DNA of 41,554 bases from Lactobacillus sp. (lineage in GTDB: Bacteria > Bacillota > Bacilli > Lactobacillales > Lactobacillaceae), in the NCBI GenBank assembly GCA_022651245.1, contig JALCQM010000027.1, positions 1 through 41,554 on the forward strand. Direction: 5' to 3'. Shown in pieces: positions 10,297-19,486 of the stretch (within the stretch, counting starts at the first letter, position 1; every line of letters starts with the position of its first letter). The notes beneath the pieces were generated by a model. It worked only from the letters and a program-made list of their open reading frames with translations. It was not told the origin of the DNA and ran no database searches. The translations under genes and the position numbers were made by a program.

Positions 10297-10317
10297 TATA
10301 GAAGTAAAACGTTTACA
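10297..10317 (+). promoter_or_regulatory. cre-like (CcpA) site at the PAS protein 1 promoter
   Basis: GTAAAACGTTTACA (10304-10317) matches 12 of 14 positions of the cre consensus TGNAARCGNWWWCA, deviating only in the first two bases. It lies directly after a possible -10 TATAGA (10297-10302), where a bound CcpA would repress. No convincing -35 box was found. Confidence 0.5.
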
Positions 10318-10356: not shown

Positions 10357-11049
10357 ATGGTGCAGACGCCGTATATCGAATCTTATGTTCAGTTTCCCAC
10401 TGGTCGGATGACCTTGACTGAAATCCAGCAGATCTTTAGCACGATTCCTTTTGAGATCGATTTGATCGACCGGACGGATCATTTTAGTTGGTATTCGAAT
10501 AAGCCGAATCGGGAGCATGTGCGCACGTTGAAGGCGCTGGGTGAACACGTCCAAAAGTGTCATCCGGCGAAGGCTTGGCCGATCGTGTCGCAAATCATTC
10601 AAAGTTTCAAAGACGGGACCAAGGATTTTGTCGCGCGGCCTTTGGTGATGAACGGGCACCGTGTGTTCATCCAGTATTATGCTTTGCGGGACGTGAATGG
10701 GACCTACCTTGGCACGATCGAATTTACGGGTAGCGCCGAGCCGATTCTGCAAGCCTTCGAAAACGGCGGCTGGTCGGATGCCAGCTCCGGGGCTTCTAAG
10801 GCAGACGGGAAAACCGGCCAGCCGACCGATGCAGATACCGGGGCTTCGCAAACTGAAACCACCGTGCCTGCCGTGGCGAACACCGATGCGGACACCGGCG
10901 CGTCAGAACACCCTGCTACCGGCGTCGCCGCAGATGATGGGGCCATGCAAACAGACGCCTACTCAGGCGCTTCGCAATCAGATAGCACGGGGCCGTTCGG
11001 CGATTCTGGTCAAATCAGCGATGCCATGACCGGGGCATCCGAATATTAA
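10357..11049 (+). CDS. PAS-domain protein 1 with five flavinylation-like C-terminal motifs
   Basis: 230 residues from the ATG at 10357. The N-terminal 135 residues resemble the PAS domain of DUF438 proteins: F-P-T-G-R, I-P-F-E-I-D-L-I-D, K-P-N-R-E-H-V-R-T, C-H-P-A-K (Cys 68, His 69), F-K-D-G-T and Q-Y-Y-A-L-R-D-V-x-G-x-Y-L-G-T-I-E-F. The tail (139-230) is acidic and low in complexity, with five D-A-x-[ST]-G-A-S motifs at residues 141-147, 158-164, 177-183, 200-206 and 222-228. This resembles the acceptor site of ApbE flavin transferases, with Ser rather than Thr as acceptor. No signal peptide, membrane segment or HTH is present. A paralogue lies at 15214; aligning the two supports this start over the GTG at 10351. 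Lactate oxidase follows 24 nt later. Function unproven; FMN carrier or redox/oxygen sensor is a hypothesis. Confidence 0.8.
   Translation: MVQTPYIESYVQFPTGRMTLTEIQQIFSTIPFEIDLIDRTDHFSWYSNKPNREHVRTLKALGEHVQKCHPAKAWPIVSQIIQSFKDGTKDFVARPLVMNGHRVFIQYYALRDVNGTYLGTIEFTGSAEPILQAFENGGWSDASSGASKADGKTGQPTDADTGASQTETTVPAVANTDADTGASEHPATGVAADDGAMQTDAYSGASQSDSTGPFGDSGQISDAMTGASEY
10777..11040 (+). repeat. Five D-A-x-[ST]-G-A-S motifs in the tail of PAS protein 1
   Basis: The five motifs begin at 10777, 10828, 10885, 10954 and 11020, with irregular spacing of 17, 19, 23 and 22 codons. The first sits in the sequence G-G-W-S-D-A-S-S-G-A-S, which is identical in the paralogue. A degenerate sixth copy, D-G-K-T-G-Q-P, lies between motifs 1 and 2. 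Confidence 0.85.
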
Positions 11050-11073
11050 TGGGGAAAAACGGAGGGAAAGCTT

Positions 11074-12171
11074 ATGGCTACACCAGATTTTGGCAATGTT
11101 CAAGAGATCGACGTGTTAAATTTGAAGAGCCTGGAGAAGCGCGCAGAAGCGCTGATCGGCCGCGGGGAATTCGGCTACATCACCGAAGGCGCCGATGATG
11201 GCTATACCAAGTGGCGCAATACCAATGCGTTCAAGGACGTGCACATGCTGCCCCGGGTTTTGCGCGATGTCGCCGAGCCCGATCAAAGCACGACTTTTTT
11301 AGGCGAAAAATTAAGCTCACCGCTGATGACCGCACCGATCGCGGGCAACACGCTGGCGCATTCTAGCGGTGAAATCGGCTTGGCTAAAGGGGCCAAAGAA
11401 GCCGGGATCATGATGGCGCAAAGCACCTTTGCGTCAAAGACGATCGCCGAAACCGCGGCGGTTTCAGACGGCGCCCCGTACTTGTTCCAACTCTATATGC
11501 CTAAAGACTGGGAATATTGCCAGTACTTACTCGACGAGGCGCATAAGGCCAACGCGCGGGCGATCGTTTTGACCGCCGATTCCACTTTGGGCGGCTACCG
11601 CGAGCTTGACGTGATCAACCATTACCACCTGAAGGGCAAGATCGCGAACTTGGCCGGGTATAACACGGGGGAAAATGGCGCCGGTGCCGGCTCCTTGTTT
11701 AAAGAATCCATGCAAAAGCTCAACCTTGACCTCATTCAAAAATTGGCGGACTATTCCGACCTGCCGATCATGATCAAAGGGATCCAAACCCCAGAAGACG
11801 CAGAAGCCGCGATTCAAGCAGGCGCTGCGGGGATCTATGTCTCCAATCACGGGGGGCGTCAGCTCGACGGGGCGCCAGGTTCGATCGAGTGCCTGCCGGC
11901 GATCGCCAAAGTAGTAGCGCACCGCGTCCCGATCATTTTTGACGGTGGCGTACAGCGTGGGACCCACGTGTTGAAGGCGCTGGCGCTAGGGGCCGATTTG
12001 GTCGGCGTCGGTCGGCCGTTCAGTTACGGCTTGGCGCTTGGCGGCTGGAAAGGGGTCAAAGCGGTGGCGGATCATTTGAAGATGGAGATCTTCATCGCCA
12101 TGCAACTCACCGGTTGCCAAACCATCGCTGACGTCAAGAAGATGCACTGCACCAACAGCTTCGAAATCTAG
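11074..12171 (+). CDS. lctO: L-lactate oxidase (FMN-dependent alpha-hydroxyacid oxidase)
   Basis: 365 residues, the normal length for lactate oxidase. The TIM-barrel FMN enzyme signature S-N-H-G-G-R-Q-L-D is present with catalytic His 259 and Arg 262. Tyr 35 (G-Y-I-T-E-G-A), Tyr 141 (L-Y-M-P-K-D) and Lys 235 (M-I-K-G-I) correspond to the substrate- and flavin-contacting residues of the family. F-D-G-G-V-Q-R-G and V-G-R-P hold the FMN phosphate. It should oxidise L-lactate to pyruvate with O2, forming H2O2, in the cytoplasm. Lactate monooxygenase or another 2-hydroxyacid substrate cannot be excluded. It is cotranscribed with PAS protein 1 (24-nt gap, GGAGGG site). Its product pyruvate is the substrate of the oxidase in the next unit. 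Confidence 0.9.
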   Translation: MATPDFGNVQEIDVLNLKSLEKRAEALIGRGEFGYITEGADDGYTKWRNTNAFKDVHMLPRVLRDVAEPDQSTTFLGEKLSSPLMTAPIAGNTLAHSSGEIGLAKGAKEAGIMMAQSTFASKTIAETAAVSDGAPYLFQLYMPKDWEYCQYLLDEAHKANARAIVLTADSTLGGYRELDVINHYHLKGKIANLAGYNTGENGAGAGSLFKESMQKLNLDLIQKLADYSDLPIMIKGIQTPEDAEAAIQAGAAGIYVSNHGGRQLDGAPGSIECLPAIAKVVAHRVPIIFDGGVQRGTHVLKALALGADLVGVGRPFSYGLALGGWKGVKAVADHLKMEIFIAMQLTGCQTIADVKKMHCTNSFEI

Positions 12172-12196
12172 CGCGATTGCCCGCGGGTGACGCGAC

Positions 12197-12357
12197 CACA
12201 GAAGTCCGATCGGGAGACGGGAGGCGTCAGCCGCCCGGCGTCAGGTCGGCTTCTGTGCGTTGCGACAGTGGGCAAGAGCGCGTTTATCGCATGCTTGCCT
12301 CCGTACCCCGATTCGTTTATTGAATCGTGGTGCGGGGGCATTTGCGTTTTTGGGTGC
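12197..12357 (+). terminator. Two hairpins after lctO
   Basis: Hairpin 1 pairs CACAGAAGTCCGA (12197-12209) with TCGGCTTCTGTG (12246-12257) around a GC-rich loop. Hairpin 2 (12304-12337) pairs CCCCGATTC with GAATC and CGGGG and is followed by GCATTTGCGTTTTTG. The second is the better terminator. The open frame over this stretch (12187-12405) has no recognisable protein features and I regard the region as non-coding. Confidence 0.5.
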
Positions 12358-12433
12358 TGCGAAGGCCACCGGCAGTTGTGTGTAGTTATCCTAAAAGCTG
12401 AATAAATCTTTGACTAGTACAGGCATGTCAGTT

Positions 12434-12462
12434 TTGACAAACAAACTGTGTAGCTATAAACA
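12434..12462 (+). promoter_or_regulatory. Candidate pox promoter
   Basis: TTGACA (12434-12439) is perfect; the -10 could be TAAACA (12457-12462, spacing 17) or TATAAA (12455-12460, spacing 15). The resulting leader of about 130 nt contains the cre-like site and two inverted repeats. Confidence 0.5.
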
Positions 12463-12496
12463 TGGTCTTAACGTGGCATTAGAACTAGACTACTAT

Positions 12497-12523
12497 CTGT
12501 AAAGCGTTTTCAGTGAAACTGAA
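12497..12523 (+). promoter_or_regulatory. cre-like site and adjoining inverted repeat in the pox leader
   Basis: GTAAAGCGTTTTCA (12499-12512) matches 12 of 14 cre positions and deviates in the same two leading bases as the site before PAS protein 1. The inverted repeat TTCAGT-gaa-ACTGAA (12509-12523) overlaps its right edge. Downstream of the promoter it would act as a roadblock for CcpA. Confidence 0.5.
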
Positions 12524-12546
12524 TAACAGCGCTGACACCATTTCAA

Positions 12547-12571
12547 ACCGTAACAGATCAACCGTTACGGT
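12547..12571 (+). promoter_or_regulatory. Inverted repeat / RNA hairpin just before the pox ribosome site
   Basis: ACCGTAAC (12547-12554) and GTTACGGT (12564-12571) are perfect 8-nt arms around a 9-nt loop. They end about 12 nt before the AGGAGG site of pox. It could be an operator or a hairpin affecting translation or RNA stability. No known regulator motif was recognised. Confidence 0.5.
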
Positions 12572-12595
12572 GGAACACAATTTAGGAGGCCCATT

Positions 12596-14392
12596 ATGGC
12601 ACAAACGATCAGTGGTTCCGATGCAGTCCTCAAGGTCATCGAATCTTGGGGCGTCGATCATATTTATGGTTATCCGGGTGGCTCATTTGATTCGACGATG
12701 AATGCCTTACACAACCAACAAGACAAGATCAAGTTCATTCAAGTGCGACACGAAGAAGCCGGTGCCTTGGCCGCCGCAGCCGACGCCAAGCTCAGCGGTC
12801 AAATCGGCGTTTGCTTCGGGTCTGCAGGCCCTGGGGCGGTGCATTTGATGAACGGGTTATACGATGCCAAAATCGACCGGGTACCGCTGCTGGCGATCGT
12901 GGCGCAGGTGCCATCGAAGAACATGAACATCGACTTTTTCCAGGCGATGAACGAAGAGCCGATGTTTAATGATGTGGCCGTGTTCAACCACACCGTGATG
13001 ACGGCGCAAAGCCTGCCGAAGGTGATCGATGAAGCGATCCAAGCGGCCTATGAACACAAAGGCGTGGCGGTGGTCACTATTCCTAAGGACTTCGGTTGGG
13101 CGCAGATCAAAGACAACTACGTCTCTAACGCCAATACGCAAATCGAACCATACGCCGTCAAGCCAGATCCAGTCCGCATCGAAGAAGCGGTCAAGCTGAT
13201 CAAGCAAGCGAGGGGCCCGCTGTTGTACTTCGGCTTAGGGGCCAAGCATGCGGCCAAGCAGCTTAAGAAGGTGTCTGAAAAATTCAAGCTGCCGCTGGTG
13301 TCCTCCGTTTTGGCGAAAGGCATCTTGGACGAAGATTATCCGGCTTACCTGGGGTCTACCGGGCGGGTCGCGCCTAAGCCCGGGGTCGAAGCAGGAATGG
13401 CGACCGATTTGATCTTGTGGGTCGGCAACGATGTGCCATTTGCCAGCATGCTGTTCAATCCTAACGCCAAGGTGATCCAAATCGACATCGAAGCGACTAA
13501 GTTAGGCAAGCGGCGGCACGATGACGTGGCGATCTTGGCGGATGCTAAAGAGGCCTTGAAGGCGTTGTGCAAAGCCGGCGACGAGCGCGAAGCGACCCCA
13601 TTTTACCTGGCGTCGATCGCCAATAAGCAAAACTGGCGGGACTGGCAAGACAGTTTCAAGGATTCACCAGAAACCCCAGTCCGGCCGGAACCGATTTTTG
13701 ACGTGTTGAACCGTGAAGCTTCTGACAAAGCCGTTTGGGCCGTCGATGTGGGCAACATCAACATCAACTTCGAGCGGCTGATCGACATCAAGCACACCCA
13801 AAAGTGGACCACAAGTGGGAAGTACGCCACCATGGGCTACGGCTTGCCGGCGGCGATCGCGGCTAAGGTCCGCTATCCAGACCGCGATGTCTACAGCCTA
13901 AGCGGGGATGGGGCCTATGCGATGTTGTGCGAAGAAATCTTGACGCAGTACAAGTACCACTTGCACATCATCAACGTGGTGTTCTCCAATCAGACGCTAG
14001 GGTATATCGAAGCCGAACAGCGGGATGACTCGCATCAGCCGCTGTCTGGGGTCGATATCCCGGATACTGACTGGGCCAAGGTCGCCGAAGGTATGGGCGC
14101 AAAAGGCTATACCGTTCGCAGTAAGGCGGAATTCCAAGCCGCGATTGCAGACGCGAAGCAGACGGACCTGCCGGTGGTGATCGACGTTAAACTCACGCAC
14201 AAGATGCCATTCACGACGCAGCATATGTATCTGGACCCGGCGTACCAAGACCCGGCCAAGATCGCAGAATTCGTGCAACACTATGATGCCCAAGACCTGC
14301 GGCCACTGCGCGCCTTTTTGCAAGAAGCCAAGGCCGGCCAGCTGGCGGCACCCAAAGCCAAGCACCACAATAAGAAAAACAAATCAAAGTAA
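12596..14392 (+). CDS. pox: Pyruvate oxidase (acetyl-phosphate forming)
   Basis: 598 residues, matching lactobacillar pyruvate oxidases of about 600. The N-terminal TPP domain carries V-R-H-E-E-A-G-A with the TPP-activating Glu 53. The central domain binds FAD. The C-terminal TPP motif runs from S-G-D-G-A-Y-A-M (GDG at about 437) to V-V-F-S-N about 25 residues later. The enzyme converts pyruvate, phosphate and O2 to acetyl phosphate, CO2 and H2O2, giving extra ATP through acetate kinase during aerobic growth. TTTAGGAGG precedes the ATG. The RibF-like FAD synthetase starts 14 nt after the stop, so enzyme and FAD supply are coupled. The Lys/Ala-rich C-terminal tail is a minor oddity. Catabolite repression through the cre-like site is likely. 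Confidence 0.95.
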   Translation: MAQTISGSDAVLKVIESWGVDHIYGYPGGSFDSTMNALHNQQDKIKFIQVRHEEAGALAAAADAKLSGQIGVCFGSAGPGAVHLMNGLYDAKIDRVPLLAIVAQVPSKNMNIDFFQAMNEEPMFNDVAVFNHTVMTAQSLPKVIDEAIQAAYEHKGVAVVTIPKDFGWAQIKDNYVSNANTQIEPYAVKPDPVRIEEAVKLIKQARGPLLYFGLGAKHAAKQLKKVSEKFKLPLVSSVLAKGILDEDYPAYLGSTGRVAPKPGVEAGMATDLILWVGNDVPFASMLFNPNAKVIQIDIEATKLGKRRHDDVAILADAKEALKALCKAGDEREATPFYLASIANKQNWRDWQDSFKDSPETPVRPEPIFDVLNREASDKAVWAVDVGNININFERLIDIKHTQKWTTSGKYATMGYGLPAAIAAKVRYPDRDVYSLSGDGAYAMLCEEILTQYKYHLHIINVVFSNQTLGYIEAEQRDDSHQPLSGVDIPDTDWAKVAEGMGAKGYTVRSKAEFQAAIADAKQTDLPVVIDVKLTHKMPFTTQHMYLDPAYQDPAKIAEFVQHYDAQDLRPLRAFLQEAKAGQLAAPKAKHHNKKNKSK

Positions 14393-14406
14393 GGAGGCAG
14401 CTAGGC

Positions 14407-15183
14407 ATGGACGTGATCACGCTGACGACCGCCAATATCGCTTCGCTGGCGCACGAACGCCCCAGCGTGTTAGCCCTCGGCTTTTTCGACGGCGTGCACC
14501 GTGGGCATCAACGGGTATTGGCCACGGCCAAACACCAAGCTGCAAACGCGGGGTTACCGCTGGCGGTGATGACGTTCGACCGGCACGCTTCACAAGTGTT
14601 TCCCGGCCCACACAGCGCCGACTTCCGCTATTTAACGACCTTAGACCAAAAAGCGGCCTTGATGGCCGACTTAGGCGTCGAGCGGCTATACGTGGTGCGC
14701 TTCACCCCGGCGTTCGCCAGCTTGAGCCCCGCGGCGTTCGTGAGCGCCTACCTCGTGGGGTTGCACGCCCGCCGCGTCGTGGCCGGCTTTGACTATACCT
14801 TCGGCCGCGGCGGGGTGGCCGGGGTGCAGACGCTCGCCCGACTGGCGGCCGGACGTTTTGCCACGACAGTCGTCACCGAGCTGCAACAAGGCCAAGATAA
14901 GGTGTCGTCGACGCGGATCCGCCGGCTGATCGCGACGGGACAACTCGTTGCTGCAGAAGCGTTATTGGGGCACCCGTATGTGGTGAGCTTGCAGGCGCAA
15001 GGCGCGGCGTTGGTGCCGCAAAGCGCGCAGCAGCTGCCACCGGCTGGCGCCTACCTGGCGACGACAGGCGCTGGCGCAGAAGTCGTCGTTGAGGTCAATG
15101 GAAAGCGCGTGTTGGGCCTGACTGCGCCTGGTGGGGTGCAATTGCGGTTCAAACAGGCCCAAGCGCTGACTGCGATCGGCTAA
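14407..15183 (+). CDS. RibF-like FAD synthetase lacking an intact riboflavin kinase domain
   Basis: 258 residues; bifunctional RibF proteins usually have 305-320. The FAD synthetase (FMN adenylyltransferase) domain is intact: G-F-F-D-G-V-H-R-G-H (25-34), the nucleotidyl-transferase HxGH-like motif, then F-D-Y-T-F-G-R-G-G-V (about 125-134) and S-S-T-R-I-R-R (about 166-172). After about residue 195 only some 60 residues remain. They keep a vague beta-barrel outline (L-P-P-A-G-A-Y-L) but lack the G-x-P-T-A-N motif that binds nucleotide and flavin in riboflavin kinase. I infer that it makes FAD from FMN only. It lies between pox, an FAD enzyme, and PAS protein 2, with GGAGG before its start. A housekeeping RibF is expected elsewhere in the genome. 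Confidence 0.85.
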   Translation: MDVITLTTANIASLAHERPSVLALGFFDGVHRGHQRVLATAKHQAANAGLPLAVMTFDRHASQVFPGPHSADFRYLTTLDQKAALMADLGVERLYVVRFTPAFASLSPAAFVSAYLVGLHARRVVAGFDYTFGRGGVAGVQTLARLAAGRFATTVVTELQQGQDKVSSTRIRRLIATGQLVAAEALLGHPYVVSLQAQGAALVPQSAQQLPPAGAYLATTGAGAEVVVEVNGKRVLGLTAPGGVQLRFKQAQALTAIG

Positions 15184-15213
15184 AGCAGCGCAGAATTAAT
15201 CATGGAGGCAATT

Positions 15214-15894
15214 ATGACAAGTAAACCAGACTTTGACGGGACGTACATCACGTTCCCGACCGGGCGGCTTTCGCTGACCGAAGTGCAACAAATTTTTAAC
15301 ACCATTCCGTTTGAAATCGACTTGATCGACCATACCGACCGGTTCACCTATTACTCGGATAAGCCCAACCGCGAACACGTGCGCACCGTTGACCAGTTGA
15401 ACGAGACGGTGGCCGAATGTCATCCGGCCCGGGTGTTGCCGATCGTCATGAAGATCATCGACAGCTTCAAAGACGGCACGCGGGACTTCGTGGCTCGGCC
15501 GCTGGTCATGCACGGACACCGCGTTTTCATCCAGTATTACGCCTTGCGTGATGTGGATGGCGCCTACCTGGGCACGATCGAGTTCACAGGTAGCGCCGAG
15601 CCGATTTTGACCGCCTATGAAAAAGGTGGCTGGTCAGACGCGTCAAGTGGCGCCTCTGCGGCTGATGGTAAAACCGGTGCACCAACGGATGCTATCAGTG
15701 GCGCTTCTGAAACGGCAGCCACCCCAGTCGTCGATGCGACCACAGGGGCTTCCGAAACCGAAGCGGCACCAGTCGTTGATGCGACCAGCGGGGCCTCCGA
15801 AACGGACGCTGCCCCTCAAGTCGATGCCACCAGTGGGGCGTCAGAAACCCCGGCTAATGGGAATCAGCCAGGACCGTTCACCTATGACCTGTAG
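15214..15894 (+). CDS. PAS-domain protein 2 with five flavinylation-like C-terminal motifs
   Basis: 226 residues from the ATG at 15214, chosen because GGAGG (15204-15208) would lie inside the gene if the ATG at 15202 were used. It is a paralogue of the protein at 10357, roughly 70% identical by eye over the first 150 residues, including K-P-N-R-E-H-V-R-T, C-H-P-A (Cys 69, His 70), F-K-D-G-T, G-H-R-V-F-I-Q-Y-Y-A-L-R-D and G-T-I-E-F-T-G-S-A-E-P-I-L. The tail has D-A-x-[ST]-G-A-S motifs at residues 142-148, 159-165, 174-180, 189-195 and 204-210; the last four recur every 15 residues. No signal peptide or membrane segment is seen. It is the last gene of the pox operon, 30 nt after the FAD synthetase. 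Proposed role: acceptor of several covalent FMN groups, or a redox sensor (inference). Confidence 0.8.
   Translation: MTSKPDFDGTYITFPTGRLSLTEVQQIFNTIPFEIDLIDHTDRFTYYSDKPNREHVRTVDQLNETVAECHPARVLPIVMKIIDSFKDGTRDFVARPLVMHGHRVFIQYYALRDVDGAYLGTIEFTGSAEPILTAYEKGGWSDASSGASAADGKTGAPTDAISGASETAATPVVDATTGASETEAAPVVDATSGASETDAAPQVDATSGASETPANGNQPGPFTYDL
15637..15843 (+). repeat. 15-codon tandem repeats with D-A-x-[ST]-G-A-S motif in PAS protein 2
   Basis: Motifs start at 15637, 15688, 15733, 15778 and 15823. The last four are exactly 45 nt apart, with spacer residues such as E-T-E-A-A-P-V-V. The regular period points to recent tandem duplication, unlike the irregular spacing in PAS protein 1. A degenerate D-G-K-T-G-A-P lies between motifs 1 and 2. 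Confidence 0.85.
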
Positions 15895-17468: not shown

Positions 17469-18416
17469 TTACCCCCGGAAATAGGCGAGGTGTGTGACCT
17501 CTTTGGCGATCGCCTGGATCTGGGTGAAGTCGGCGGCTGGGGTCGTCGTCATGATCGCCAAGACGAAGCGCTGGCCGTCGGGGAGCGTGACGGTCGCGGC
17601 ATCGCTGGTGCTGTTGCCTAGTTGGCCCGTAACGTTTTGAATCTTGGCTTTAGGCAAGAGTTGGGTCACGCCAGCAGGGATCCCGCGGCGCTCGACTTGT
17701 GCTGCCAGGTCTTGCAAGACGCGTTGTTGCATGCGTTGGTGAGCAAAGGGCGCCTGGTGATCGGCGAGTTTGCGTAGCAAGTTGGCTAGGTCGTTGGTCG
17801 TTGTGTGGTCTTCGGTCACATCACTAAAGGCTGGGGTCAAGTCAAGTTTTTTTAGGTAGTGGTTGACGGTGCCTTTGCCATAGCGGGTCAGTATGGTATT
17901 GGCGTAATAGGGCCCGTTATTGGCGAGCATCATGTGCATGCCAGCGGAATCGCTTGCGGTCCAAATTTTCTCCCCAGTGGCTTGCAAGTGGCTGAGATAG
18001 GCGGCGAGCGCGAGGTGGGCGCTAGCCCCGGCCAAGCGGGCTTGACTGCCTTGGGCAACCGTCGCGACGCTCCCGGCAACGTTGAGGGGGTCGGTGCGCT
18101 TAGCCGCCGTTGAACCGGGTACAGGCGTCAGGTTATAAAAGGTGACGCTGGTATCCGTGGTGGTGGTGACCTGGCGAAGGTAGTGATGCAGACGCGCACG
18201 GATGGTCGCGACTGGGACCTGGGTGTTTGCCGGGATGGTCGCCGCAGGGGTGGGTAAAGCAGCGGGTGGCAACTGTAATTGCGTCACCGTTGCCGGAAGG
18301 GTCACCTTGGAGGGGGCGACCGTGGTGACCAAGTAAAACGTTGACAAAGCGACGACCAATAAGGTGCTGCCGAGCAGCAAAGCCGGTGTGCGGTATTGCG
18401 GTTTTAGACGGACCAT
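17469..18416 (-). CDS. Membrane-anchored class A beta-lactamase-fold protein without catalytic motifs
   Basis: 315 residues. An N-terminal membrane anchor (about 12-32) is followed by a Pro/Thr/Ala-rich linker and an extracellular domain. The overall order (A-G-A-S-A-H-L-A-L, L-A-N-N-G-P-Y-Y-A-N-T-I-L, N-V-T-G-Q-L-G-N) parallels the class A serine-hydrolase landmarks SxxK, SDN and KTG, but the key residues are replaced: A-S-A-H in place of S-x-x-K, A-N-N in place of S-D-N. It is therefore probably not an active hydrolase; a binding or scaffolding role at the cell wall is a guess. AGGAGGGG precedes the ATG. It is divergently arranged with the probably active relative at 18584. Confidence 0.65.
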   Translation of the reverse strand: MVRLKPQYRTPALLLGSTLLVVALSTFYLVTTVAPSKVTLPATVTQLQLPPAALPTPAATIPANTQVPVATIRARLHHYLRQVTTTTDTSVTFYNLTPVPGSTAAKRTDPLNVAGSVATVAQGSQARLAGASAHLALAAYLSHLQATGEKIWTASDSAGMHMMLANNGPYYANTILTRYGKGTVNHYLKKLDLTPAFSDVTEDHTTTNDLANLLRKLADHQAPFAHQRMQQRVLQDLAAQVERRGIPAGVTQLLPKAKIQNVTGQLGNSTSDAATVTLPDGQRFVLAIMTTTPAADFTQIQAIAKEVTHLAYFRG

Positions 18417-18545: not shown

Positions 18546-18583
18546 TGATATGCCATAATATTAGCGAAAGGAGATGGTGAGTG

Positions 18584-19486
18584 ATGGCCAAACCACGACG
18601 GCACTTAAAGAAAAGCGTCAAGCGGACTTTGTGGGGGATTTTAGTGGTGCTCTTCGCCTTGGTGGCGGTGCATCACTACCGGGCGCGCCCACAAGTCGCA
18701 GACTCGAAACCGGCGACGCACACGGTCGCCACGACCACCAAAGCGGCACCGGCACCGTCTAAAGCGGCGGTGCAAAAGGCGCTAACGGCTAAATGGCAAG
18801 CCATCCTGGCCGCGCATCCGGACACGCCGATTTCAGTGGCGGTGTATTCGCCACAGTCTGGGGCGTTGGTGGCGCTGAATAACCACAAAACCACCCCGCA
18901 CACCACGGCCAGCATCGTGAAGGTGGCGATGCTGGTGCAGCTGCTGCACGTCCACCATGCCGCCGGTGAAACCTTAACGGCCACGGAGCACAGTTATGCA
19001 GAAGCAGCGATTCAAAATAGTGACAACGCGGCAGCCACAGGCTTGTATCGCGCCATTGGCGATAGCCAAGGGCTGACGACGTTGTTTGCCAACTTGAAGA
19101 TGACCAACTCGGTGGCCAACGCCAACGGCTGGGTCTTGACCACCACCACGGCCAGCGACCAGTTGCGGTTGTTGAACCAGATCTTCTACGCCAAAGACTA
19201 CCTCTCGAGCGCTTCACGCGCGTACCTCAAAACGGAAATGGGGCAGATCGAAGCCGATCAGCAATGGGGCGTTTCGGCAGGCAGTACCACCTTTCAGCTG
19301 AAAAATGGCTGGCGACAAAACGGCGATAACACCTGGATCGTCAATAGCATCGGCCATCTAGGAACTGGGAAGCGCAGCTGCACGATCGCCGTTTTGACGG
19401 ATGACAATACGAGCTTAAAACAAGGCATTCGCCTCGTCGAGCAGTTTGCGCGCGCTGCAGGCACGACTTTAGCACTGCCGCAGTAA
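18584..19486 (+). CDS. Membrane-anchored serine hydrolase of class A beta-lactamase fold
   Basis: 300 residues from the ATG at 18584, with AAAGGAG about 10 nt upstream; a GTG one codon earlier is open. A basic N-terminus and membrane anchor (about 14-30) place the rest outside the cell. The three active-site elements are present: T-A-S-I-V-K-V-A (S-x-x-K, about 110-117), Q-N-S-D-N-A-A (S-D-N, about 142-148), and L-K-N-G-W in place of K-T-G. Members cleave beta-lactams or peptidoglycan-related peptides; resistance is not implied, since lactobacilli carry many such proteins of unknown substrate. The Lys-Asn-Gly form of the third motif is unusual. It is followed by a very strong terminator. Confidence 0.8.
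   Translation: MAKPRRHLKKSVKRTLWGILVVLFALVAVHHYRARPQVADSKPATHTVATTTKAAPAPSKAAVQKALTAKWQAILAAHPDTPISVAVYSPQSGALVALNNHKTTPHTTASIVKVAMLVQLLHVHHAAGETLTATEHSYAEAAIQNSDNAAATGLYRAIGDSQGLTTLFANLKMTNSVANANGWVLTTTTASDQLRLLNQIFYAKDYLSSASRAYLKTEMGQIEADQQWGVSAGSTTFQLKNGWRQNGDNTWIVNSIGHLGTGKRSCTIAVLTDDNTSLKQGIRLVEQFARAAGTTLALPQ

Follow-up and report, generated by a model that had tools for sequence, protein, structure and literature searches.

Why should a lactic acid bacterium encode, on either side of a set of oxidase genes, two soluble-looking PAS proteins whose tails each repeat five times a motif resembling the attachment site of covalent flavin? The question is raised by positions 10,357 to 15,894 of a 41,554-nucleotide stretch of Lactobacillus sp. 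DNA (GenBank assembly GCA_022651245.1, contig JALCQM010000027.1), the whole of which is referred to here as the window. A preliminary description had proposed that the flavin transferase ApbE attaches flavin mononucleotide (FMN) to these tails, and that the proteins then form a cytosolic flavin wire or electron reservoir next to oxidases producing hydrogen peroxide (H2O2). Motif statistics, ApbE co-occurrence and gene linkage indicate that the tails are very probably ApbE acceptors, and we regard flavinylation of at least some tail serines as highly likely. The fuller reading, in which the proteins also act as redox partners that offer tethered FMN to cytosolic flavin enzymes, we put at roughly two chances in three.

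Two PAS Proteins With Repeated Putative Acceptor Motifs

The first protein (P0001, 230 aa) is encoded at 10357..11049 and the second (P0002, 226 aa) at 15214..15894, both on the plus strand; they represent what we call the LOX-linked and the POX-linked type, respectively (LOX, lactate oxidase; POX, pyruvate oxidase). In a Pfam scan each matched a single family, PAS_10 (PF13596), at 58.6 bits for protein 1 and 53.2 bits for protein 2 (cut-off 22.1). The domain spans residues 24-123 of the former (10426..10725, plus strand) and 25-124 of the latter (15286..15585, plus strand), where fold prediction also recovered it. The nearest solved structures to the PAS part were the PAS domains 2qkp and 3cax, by sequence search and, for protein 2, by fold search. 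PAS_10 is a PAS type that occurs in DUF438-like proteins too; the Pfam scan found no DUF438 N-terminal domain in P0001 or P0002, and a separate 519-aa protein of the genome with a related PAS domain (L010:2018-3577) is presumably a DUF438 protein. Nor did the scan return FMN_red (PF03358) or FMN_bind (PF04205) in either protein. The two are paralogues (71% identity over 208 residues of P0002), and P0002 is 66% identical to the PAS-tail part of a third, fused paralogue described below. A defence-system scan of three proteins gave zero matches.

Behind the PAS domain, each tail holds five motifs. Read along the plus strand, those of protein 1 are DASSGAS (10777..10797), DADTGAS (10828..10848 and again 10885..10905), DAYSGAS (10954..10974) and DAMTGAS (11020..11040). 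Those of protein 2 are DASSGAS (15637..15657), DAISGAS (15688..15708), DATTGAS (15733..15753) and DATSGAS (15778..15798 and 15823..15843), followed by a C-terminal peptide, GPFTYDL (15871..15891), that is a candidate docking peptide. As the preliminary description had noted, all ten fit D-A-x-[ST]-G-A-S, and both tails fit D-x-x-[ST]-G-A-[ST], the acceptor motif of ApbE-flavinylated proteins. When the 91- and 86-residue tails were shuffled 20,000 times, the means were 0.025 and 0.014 motifs, the maximum was 2 and five were reached 0 times, which rules out chance as their origin. The repeats within a tail differ in synonymous codons and are therefore not fresh DNA copies. Identity to the two L. 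baoqingensis orthologues amounted to 54/56 aligned residues in the motifs, 65/87 in the linkers and 249/279 in the PAS part; 14 motif and 20 linker positions fell in gaps and were left uncounted, as these orthologues have four motifs each. Among the non-overlapping open reading frames (ORFs) of the window, 12,367 aa in total, the strict motif was confined to these two genes.

AlphaFold2 returned predicted local distance difference test (pLDDT) scores mostly above 70 for the PAS part and below 50 for residues 138-226 of protein 2; the tails are thus predicted to be disordered, as had been suggested, and the motifs sit in this low-confidence region. Hydropathy of the N-termini, a crude measure, was 1.44 and 1.22, as compared to 2.82 and 2.33 for two lipoproteins of the same genome. 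By this test neither N-terminus resembles a signal peptide, and nothing points to export.

An ApbE Beside the Third Paralogue

Two ApbE genes were found in this genome, ruling out that ApbE is absent from it. One of them encodes the cytosolic-type P0004 (G000:C14, L002:1474-2388), in which the ApbE domain (PF02424, 219.6 bits) begins at residue 10 and so leaves little room for a signal peptide; its N-terminal hydropathy is 1.98. The signal-less ApbE sought by the preliminary description is thus present, and would share the compartment of the PAS-tail proteins, as judged from sequence alone. Its closest solved relative is the transferase of FMN from flavin adenine dinucleotide (FAD) to protein, FAD:protein FMN transferase 7esa (5e-55). 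The P0004 gene starts 15 bp after that of the third paralogue, P0003, which consists of FMN_red (PF03358), PAS_10 and a tail with the motifs DAATGAS, DGTTGAS and DGTSGAS.

The other ApbE is a lipoprotein. Next to its gene stand one for an NDH2-like protein and one for a lipoprotein in which the motif DVVSGAT occurs twice (L011:5864-10220), and the locus reads as one for extracellular electron transfer. We considered and rejected this enzyme as the modifier of the window tails, given its signal sequence with lipobox and its place beside the DVVSGAT lipoprotein.

We also aligned the catalytic sites. In 15/15 aligned PAS-linked ApbEs of the genus, the catalytic Asp is replaced by Glu, and the Thr four residues later by Lys; Ser and His are kept (L061, from G023, in which no frame was found, is omitted from this alignment, and L060 is a partial sequence). 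Lipoprotein ApbEs in the same alignment retain the catalytic Asp. Residue roles for the Ser-His-Asp set follow PMC12052999.

Co-occurrence of Tails and Transferase

The preliminary description had turned on whether such PAS proteins and ApbE occur together. PAS proteins with at least three strict motifs are present in 14 of the 30 genomes of the genus (G000, G001, G002, G004, G007, G008, G010, G011, G012, G013, G014, G018, G019 and G027), with three to six conserved acceptors per chain, and the same 14 hold an ApbE whose best match to P0004 is at least 65% identical; this agreement was established by eye from the two lists. In G004, a genome 84% complete, both genes are fragmented. Elsewhere in the genus, G023 has a 50% relative, close to a GlpO gene that itself bears a motif, and in the remaining 15 genomes the best match is at most 42% or there is none. 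All these co-occurrence counts, and those that follow, ignore phylogeny.

Across the family, the PAS-tail profile matched in 201 of 397 Lactobacillaceae genomes (E up to 1e-3, untailed and DUF438 proteins included) and a P0004-matching ApbE in 180 of 397 (E up to 1e-70, a threshold strict enough that ApbEs of a second clade are not counted among the 180). From these lists, 29 genomes were picked by eye in which the PAS profile matched at E up to about 1e-35 but no close P0004 relative was present. A Pfam ApbE match is still found in 27 of the 29, and in G393 it consists only of two partial frames. The exceptions without ApbE are G237, whose PAS protein is tailless, and G279, which has a five-motif tail in a genome 76% complete. 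A general lack of ApbE from genomes with these PAS proteins, which the preliminary description had named as fatal to its proposal, is therefore not what we see. At the level of the order, the profile matched in 144/395 genomes (E up to 1e-30), and ApbE lies at most two genes from the gene for a FMN_red+PAS+tail protein at 18/20 loci (exceptions L221 and L230).

The form of the motif varies with the neighbouring ApbE. An ApbE gene lies within three genes, on the same stretch, of 63/101 distinct tails. Where the neighbouring ApbE shares 47% identity or more with P0004 (31 tails), Gly occupies position 5 in 100/108 loose motifs; for the 32 tails next to other ApbEs, that position is Gly in 42/97 and Ser in 55/97. 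Ala at position 4 occurs in 22/97 of the latter motifs vs 1/108 of the former, and the last residue is Ser in 196/205 overall, the loose pattern having been defined after the variant tails were seen. In a quick tree of 60 ApbEs and the lipoprotein ApbE (three were dropped whose tails have fewer than two loose motifs), the dividing branch had a Shimodaira-Hasegawa-like approximate likelihood ratio test (SH-aLRT) value of 99. Mostly-Gly-5 tails make up 25/29 labelled rows on one side of this branch and 8/31 on the other, with labels that track relatedness as well as function. This supports, but does not prove, that motif form and ApbE clade co-evolved, since the relatedness of organisms and PAS subtypes contributes to the pattern.

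Gene Order and Possible Partner Enzymes

Three genes lie between the two PAS-tail genes of the window, all on the plus strand. The first (11074..12171) encodes an FMN-dependent alpha-hydroxyacid oxidase that is lactate-oxidase-like (FMN_dh, 367 bits); its product scores 368 bits on TIGR02708, below the curated L-lactate oxidase threshold of 645. It is followed by a pyruvate oxidase of the SpxB/Pox type (12596..14392), which exceeds the cut-off of TIGR02720 (872 bits; cut-off 638). The third product (14407..15183) matches the Pfam FAD synthase domain (FMN adenylyltransferase) and gave no hit to riboflavin kinase. Since the genome has a separate RibF elsewhere, with FAD_syn and flavokinase domains both present, we regard this FAD synthase as an extra copy.

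The link to neighbouring oxidase genes that the preliminary description had drawn is conserved in relatives. The order pox-FAD synthase-PAS/tail-apbE recurs in L. parakribbianus, L. kribbianus and L. porcinae (L013, L014 and L015, the same stretches as G018, G011 and G019), and also in G014, G007 and G181, the last from another genus. L. jixianensis and L. hegangensis (L016 and L017) have a shorter form, pox-PAS/tail-apbE, in which FAD synthase was not found, and the window shares with L. baoqingensis the order PAS-LOX-pox-FAD synthase-PAS without apbE. ORFs were called by a simple greedy script, in which long ORFs on the opposite strand masked a few genes. PAS genes in L016, L017 and L260 were among those later recovered, and the ones of L016, L017 and G007 are taken from a separate ORF listing. 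In genus g33, pox-apbE-PAS/tail occurs twice (L240 and L244) with another PAS subtype and an ApbE of the second clade; L240 has an FAD synthase gene alongside on the opposite strand, and L244 has none. To us this cassette looks like a second, independent assembly.

Partner-specific subtypes are apparent as well. The LOX-linked paralogue precedes the LOX-like gene at 5/5 loci (window, L012, G019, G007 and G014), and the ending GPF-x-[YF]-D-L is found in 11/11 POX-linked members of the subtype, 0/5 LOX-linked ones and 0/2 POX-linked ones of g33. Fractions of adjacency are not random samples, because some stretches were chosen for an already known ApbE or PAS match. Elsewhere in this genome, a tailless PAS_10 protein is encoded between a 1212-aa protein and an FMN_red-family protein (L009:3367-7986, minus strand); we take the 1212-aa protein to be pyruvate:ferredoxin oxidoreductase and, if so, PAS_10 is again next to a pyruvate-oxidising enzyme.

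Upstream of PAS-tail gene 1 lies a 14-bp box, GTAAAACGTTTACA (10304..10317, plus strand), and upstream of pox another of the same form, GTAAAGCGTTTTCA (12499..12512, plus strand). The pattern GTAAARCGTTTWCA, with at most one mismatch, occurs three times in the window, two of them exact, against 0.03 expected; the third box, with one mismatch, is at 18333. In L. baoqingensis the box recurs ahead of both of these genes. Catabolite-responsive element (cre) sites, searched with one pattern and at most one mismatch, were found upstream of neither transcription unit. Elsewhere in the window, a divergent gene pair (17469-18416, minus strand; 18581-19486, plus strand) encodes proteins that resemble the class A beta-lactamase fold and are probably cell-wall serine enzymes; one matched Pfam Beta-lactamase2, the other gave only weak NCBIfam matches far under cut-offs.

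Wider Family and Other Motif-Bearing Proteins

Fused FMN_red-PAS forms occur in several genera. Extra PAS-tail units extend the proteins of L217-L219 (882 to 894 aa) and L231 (713 aa), with three PAS_10 stretches in L217. Two genomes of genus g20 (L132 and L133) hold a single fusion of FMN_red, PAS, tail, FMN_bind and FAD_binding_2, the Pfam scan having been made on L132.

Other proteins bear the motif as well. Glycerol-3-phosphate oxidase (GlpO)-like proteins at L147:2285-4030 (plus strand), L152:2188-3963 (plus strand) and L153:5665-7410 (minus strand) have one D-[AV]-V-S-G-A-S near residue 365, with an ApbE gene beside or near each and, in L153, the one scanned, DAO and DAO_C domains; GlpO may be another cytosolic ApbE substrate. 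Two ApbE-like proteins with no evident signal sequence (L278:1345-2373, minus strand; L279:1471-2499, plus strand) carry DLVSGAS or DLASGAS close to the C-terminus, an arrangement that would fit self-modification. An FMN_red-like protein without PAS match (L148:5142-6086, minus strand) has a tail with two strict and two looser motifs, and an ApbE gene directly adjacent. Finally, proteins of about 800 aa in L144, L146 and L149 combine an N-terminal FMN_red-like domain with a strict motif near the C-terminus; ApbE genes are in the neighbourhood, no PAS gene is on the same stretch, and the mid-region in L149 is presumably fumarate-reductase-like.

Proposed Mechanism and Alternatives

In the reading that we prefer, both proteins would be cytosolic carriers of several covalently bound FMN. 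It is strongly indicated that an ApbE without signal sequence, whose gene lies elsewhere in this genome but directly follows the PAS-tail gene in a number of relatives, would take FAD as donor and attach FMN to the final Ser of every D-A-x-[ST]-G-A-S. The FAD synthase of the cluster could provide both the FAD for ApbE and the cofactor of pyruvate oxidase. The folded PAS domain may then dock on the partner enzyme, perhaps helped in the POX-linked type by the GPFTYDL peptide, while the FMN-loaded flexible tail would trade electrons with the partner flavin in the manner of a swinging arm. The candidate partner of protein 1 is the lactate-oxidase-like enzyme, that of protein 2 pyruvate oxidase and that of the third, fused member NADH:FMN reductase. 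The electrons might finally reduce O2, giving H2O2, or go to a different acceptor, for instance a domain of the fumarate-reductase type; two related genomes encode fusions of the same module to such a domain.

Several points weigh against this reading. Pyruvate and lactate oxidases are active with O2 alone, so that a carrier is not obviously needed, and the case for electron transfer is drawn from gene linkage. The window itself contains no apbE gene, and on larger stretches 22/66 tail genes lack an ApbE gene at a distance of up to three genes. Conversely, 19 genomes of the family (by eye) have a P0004-like ApbE yet no PAS match. Among 10 stretches taken from such genomes, 8 carry another strict-motif gene, for fumarate-reductase-like, GlpO-like or FMN_red proteins, and 2 (L145 and L150) carry none; the link of this ApbE to PAS tails is not exclusive. 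Because of the two substitutions in 15/15 sequences, the activity or exact chemistry of the PAS-linked ApbEs could differ, and Ser is a poorer acceptor than Thr for tested ApbEs (PMC12052999). Lastly, LjPAS of L. johnsonii, a 28-kDa PAS protein described in 2015 as a modulator of the heterodimeric, H2O2-making NADH:FMN reductase FRedA/B, slowed rather than sped FRedA/B activation, and a two-hybrid test with LjPAS showed no effect (PMC4500961).

A broader version, possible but in our view doubtful, is a common cytosolic relay. In it, PAS proteins with 3-6 tethered FMN would draw electrons from pyruvate via pyruvate oxidase, from lactate via the LOX-like oxidase and from NADH via FMN reductase. 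Contacts between PAS domains and flavin exchange from one tail to the next would spread these electrons among the proteins, and O2 or fumarate-type acceptors would finally receive them. Such a relay would amount to a soluble respiratory-like chain in which disordered multi-FMN tails replace folded carriers.

The main rival, which we hold to be unlikely, is that the proteins are regulators: the PAS domain would sense oxygen, redox state or a ligand and tune the assembly or activity of flavin oxidases, with tail FMN reporting or gating the redox state and the main electron flow bypassing it. PAS domains are common sensors. Preincubation of FRedB with LjPAS halved the initial rate, and the LjPAS transcript responds to aeration, in a direction that is inconsistent within the paper (lower on aeration in the Results, repressed without oxygen in the abstract; PMC4500961). 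For a sensor, however, three to six acceptors per chain and the multi-unit proteins of L217-L219 seem excessive, and the fusion of FMN_red-PAS-tail to a fumarate-reductase-like module suggests electron flow; LjPAS was, moreover, apparently assayed without its own ApbE. The regulator and carrier views are compatible, provided that the partner is under the control of the tail's redox state.

Quite improbable, in our estimate, is a flavin store or FMN chaperone, in which the tail would reserve FMN, or protect flavin and deliver it to pyruvate oxidase, the LOX-like enzyme and FMN reductase. The extra FAD synthase in the cassette and the flavoenzyme nature of the partners fit this idea, as does the increased recovery of soluble FRedA with LjPAS (PMC4500961). 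ApbE modification is, however, termed irreversible (PMC12052999), partner-specific subtypes would be needless, and no obvious hydrolase was noticed in the cassettes, though none was specifically searched for.

Still less probable is that the altered ApbEs attach a different group, another nucleotide or a phosphoryl, to the same serines. The Asp-to-Glu and Thr-to-Lys changes are its basis, but the closest solved relative is 7esa and the neighbouring FAD synthase fits an FAD substrate. Furthermore, ApbEs of the second type beside PAS genes (L124, L128, L129, L134, L135 and L142) have the Glu in 6/6, with Thr at the Lys position in five of the six and Gly in L135, so that tails are kept with either active site. 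That the repeats are an unmodified low-complexity linker or binding tail, resembling the ApbE motif by ancestry, is hardly credible: the tails are rich in Ala, Ser, Thr and Glu and expand or contract among species, but shuffling never reproduced five motifs, the motifs are better conserved than the linker, ApbE co-occurs with and adjoins the tails and is associated by clade with motif form, and G237 lacks both tail and ApbE.

Comparison With Known Systems

We take g37 to be the genus Lactobacillus. Among five PAS tails there, three strict motifs were found in L183, L185 and L186, two in L187 and none in L188, where the zero refers to the frame read only and the tail looks frame-shifted; in L154-L157, ApbE follows the FMN_red pair with one or two genes in between. 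By its description, LjPAS belongs to the same family as the window proteins: it is soluble, has a single PAS domain and is related to the fusions of FMN reductase with PAS-10 that PMC4500961 had already noted in other species. It differs in being described as a regulator with an NADH:FMN reductase as partner, whereas the window proteins have five motifs each and LOX-like and pox genes alongside. Produced alone in E. coli, LjPAS went into inclusion bodies (PMC4500961), and it was probably unflavinylated there. A term search of the text of PMC4500961 gave no occurrence of ApbE, covalent or flavinyl.

The statement of the preliminary description that it knew of no such protein being described is incorrect in part. 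The PAS family is known since 2015 and FMN_red proteins with one or two flavinylated tail motifs have been published (PMC11334425), while the available text on LjPAS is without tail motifs or ApbE; among the matches listed in searches of the open-access literature we found no description of flavinylated PAS proteins. What reads as new is that proteins probably modified by ApbE take the form of cytosolic PAS proteins, whose disordered tails would hold several acceptors and which are linked to peroxide-forming flavin enzymes. PAS-tail proteins are found across many lactic acid bacteria, often by genes for peroxide-forming enzymes and apbE, which suggests an overlooked electron-carrying partner in their oxygen handling. 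If this is true, LjPAS, which was published as a partner in H2O2 production but left unexplained, would be a multi-FMN protein that was studied unmodified, and free FMN in the LjPAS/FRed assays would substitute for tail-tethered FMN. ApbE flavinylation would also be linked to pyruvate oxidase and lactate-oxidase-like enzymes, with relevance to peroxide from food and probiotic bacteria.

Another close precedent comes from Lactococcus, where flavinylation of FMN_red proteins bearing one or two motifs in the tail was shown by co-expression and alanine mutants (PMC11334425). These proteins share with those of the window an unstructured C-terminal extension with motif-like sequences, an ApbE neighbour and Firmicutes origin. 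Their motifs are attached to a flavin-binding FMN_red domain, and the available sections of that paper mention no PAS domain; the window proteins, in contrast, lack FMN_red and bear their five motifs behind a PAS domain. Multi-flavinylated FMN_bind proteins likewise carry several ApbE-attached FMN per chain (PMC8238504, PMC11334425, PMC10339131), but are described as extracytosolic strings of folded FMN-bind domains, whereas the window proteins have neither FMN_bind nor a sign of a signal peptide. The acceptor motif and a sufficient seven-residue tag for ApbE are established (PMC12052999). In Klebsiella, as proposed here, a signal-less ApbE acts on a soluble cytosolic enzyme, fumarate reductase (PMC12052999). 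There the acceptor lies in the enzyme itself, whereas in the window it would be a separate multi-acceptor tail; if our reading holds, ApbE flavinylation would widen from single folded domains, mostly extracellular, to intracellular disordered tails with many acceptors.

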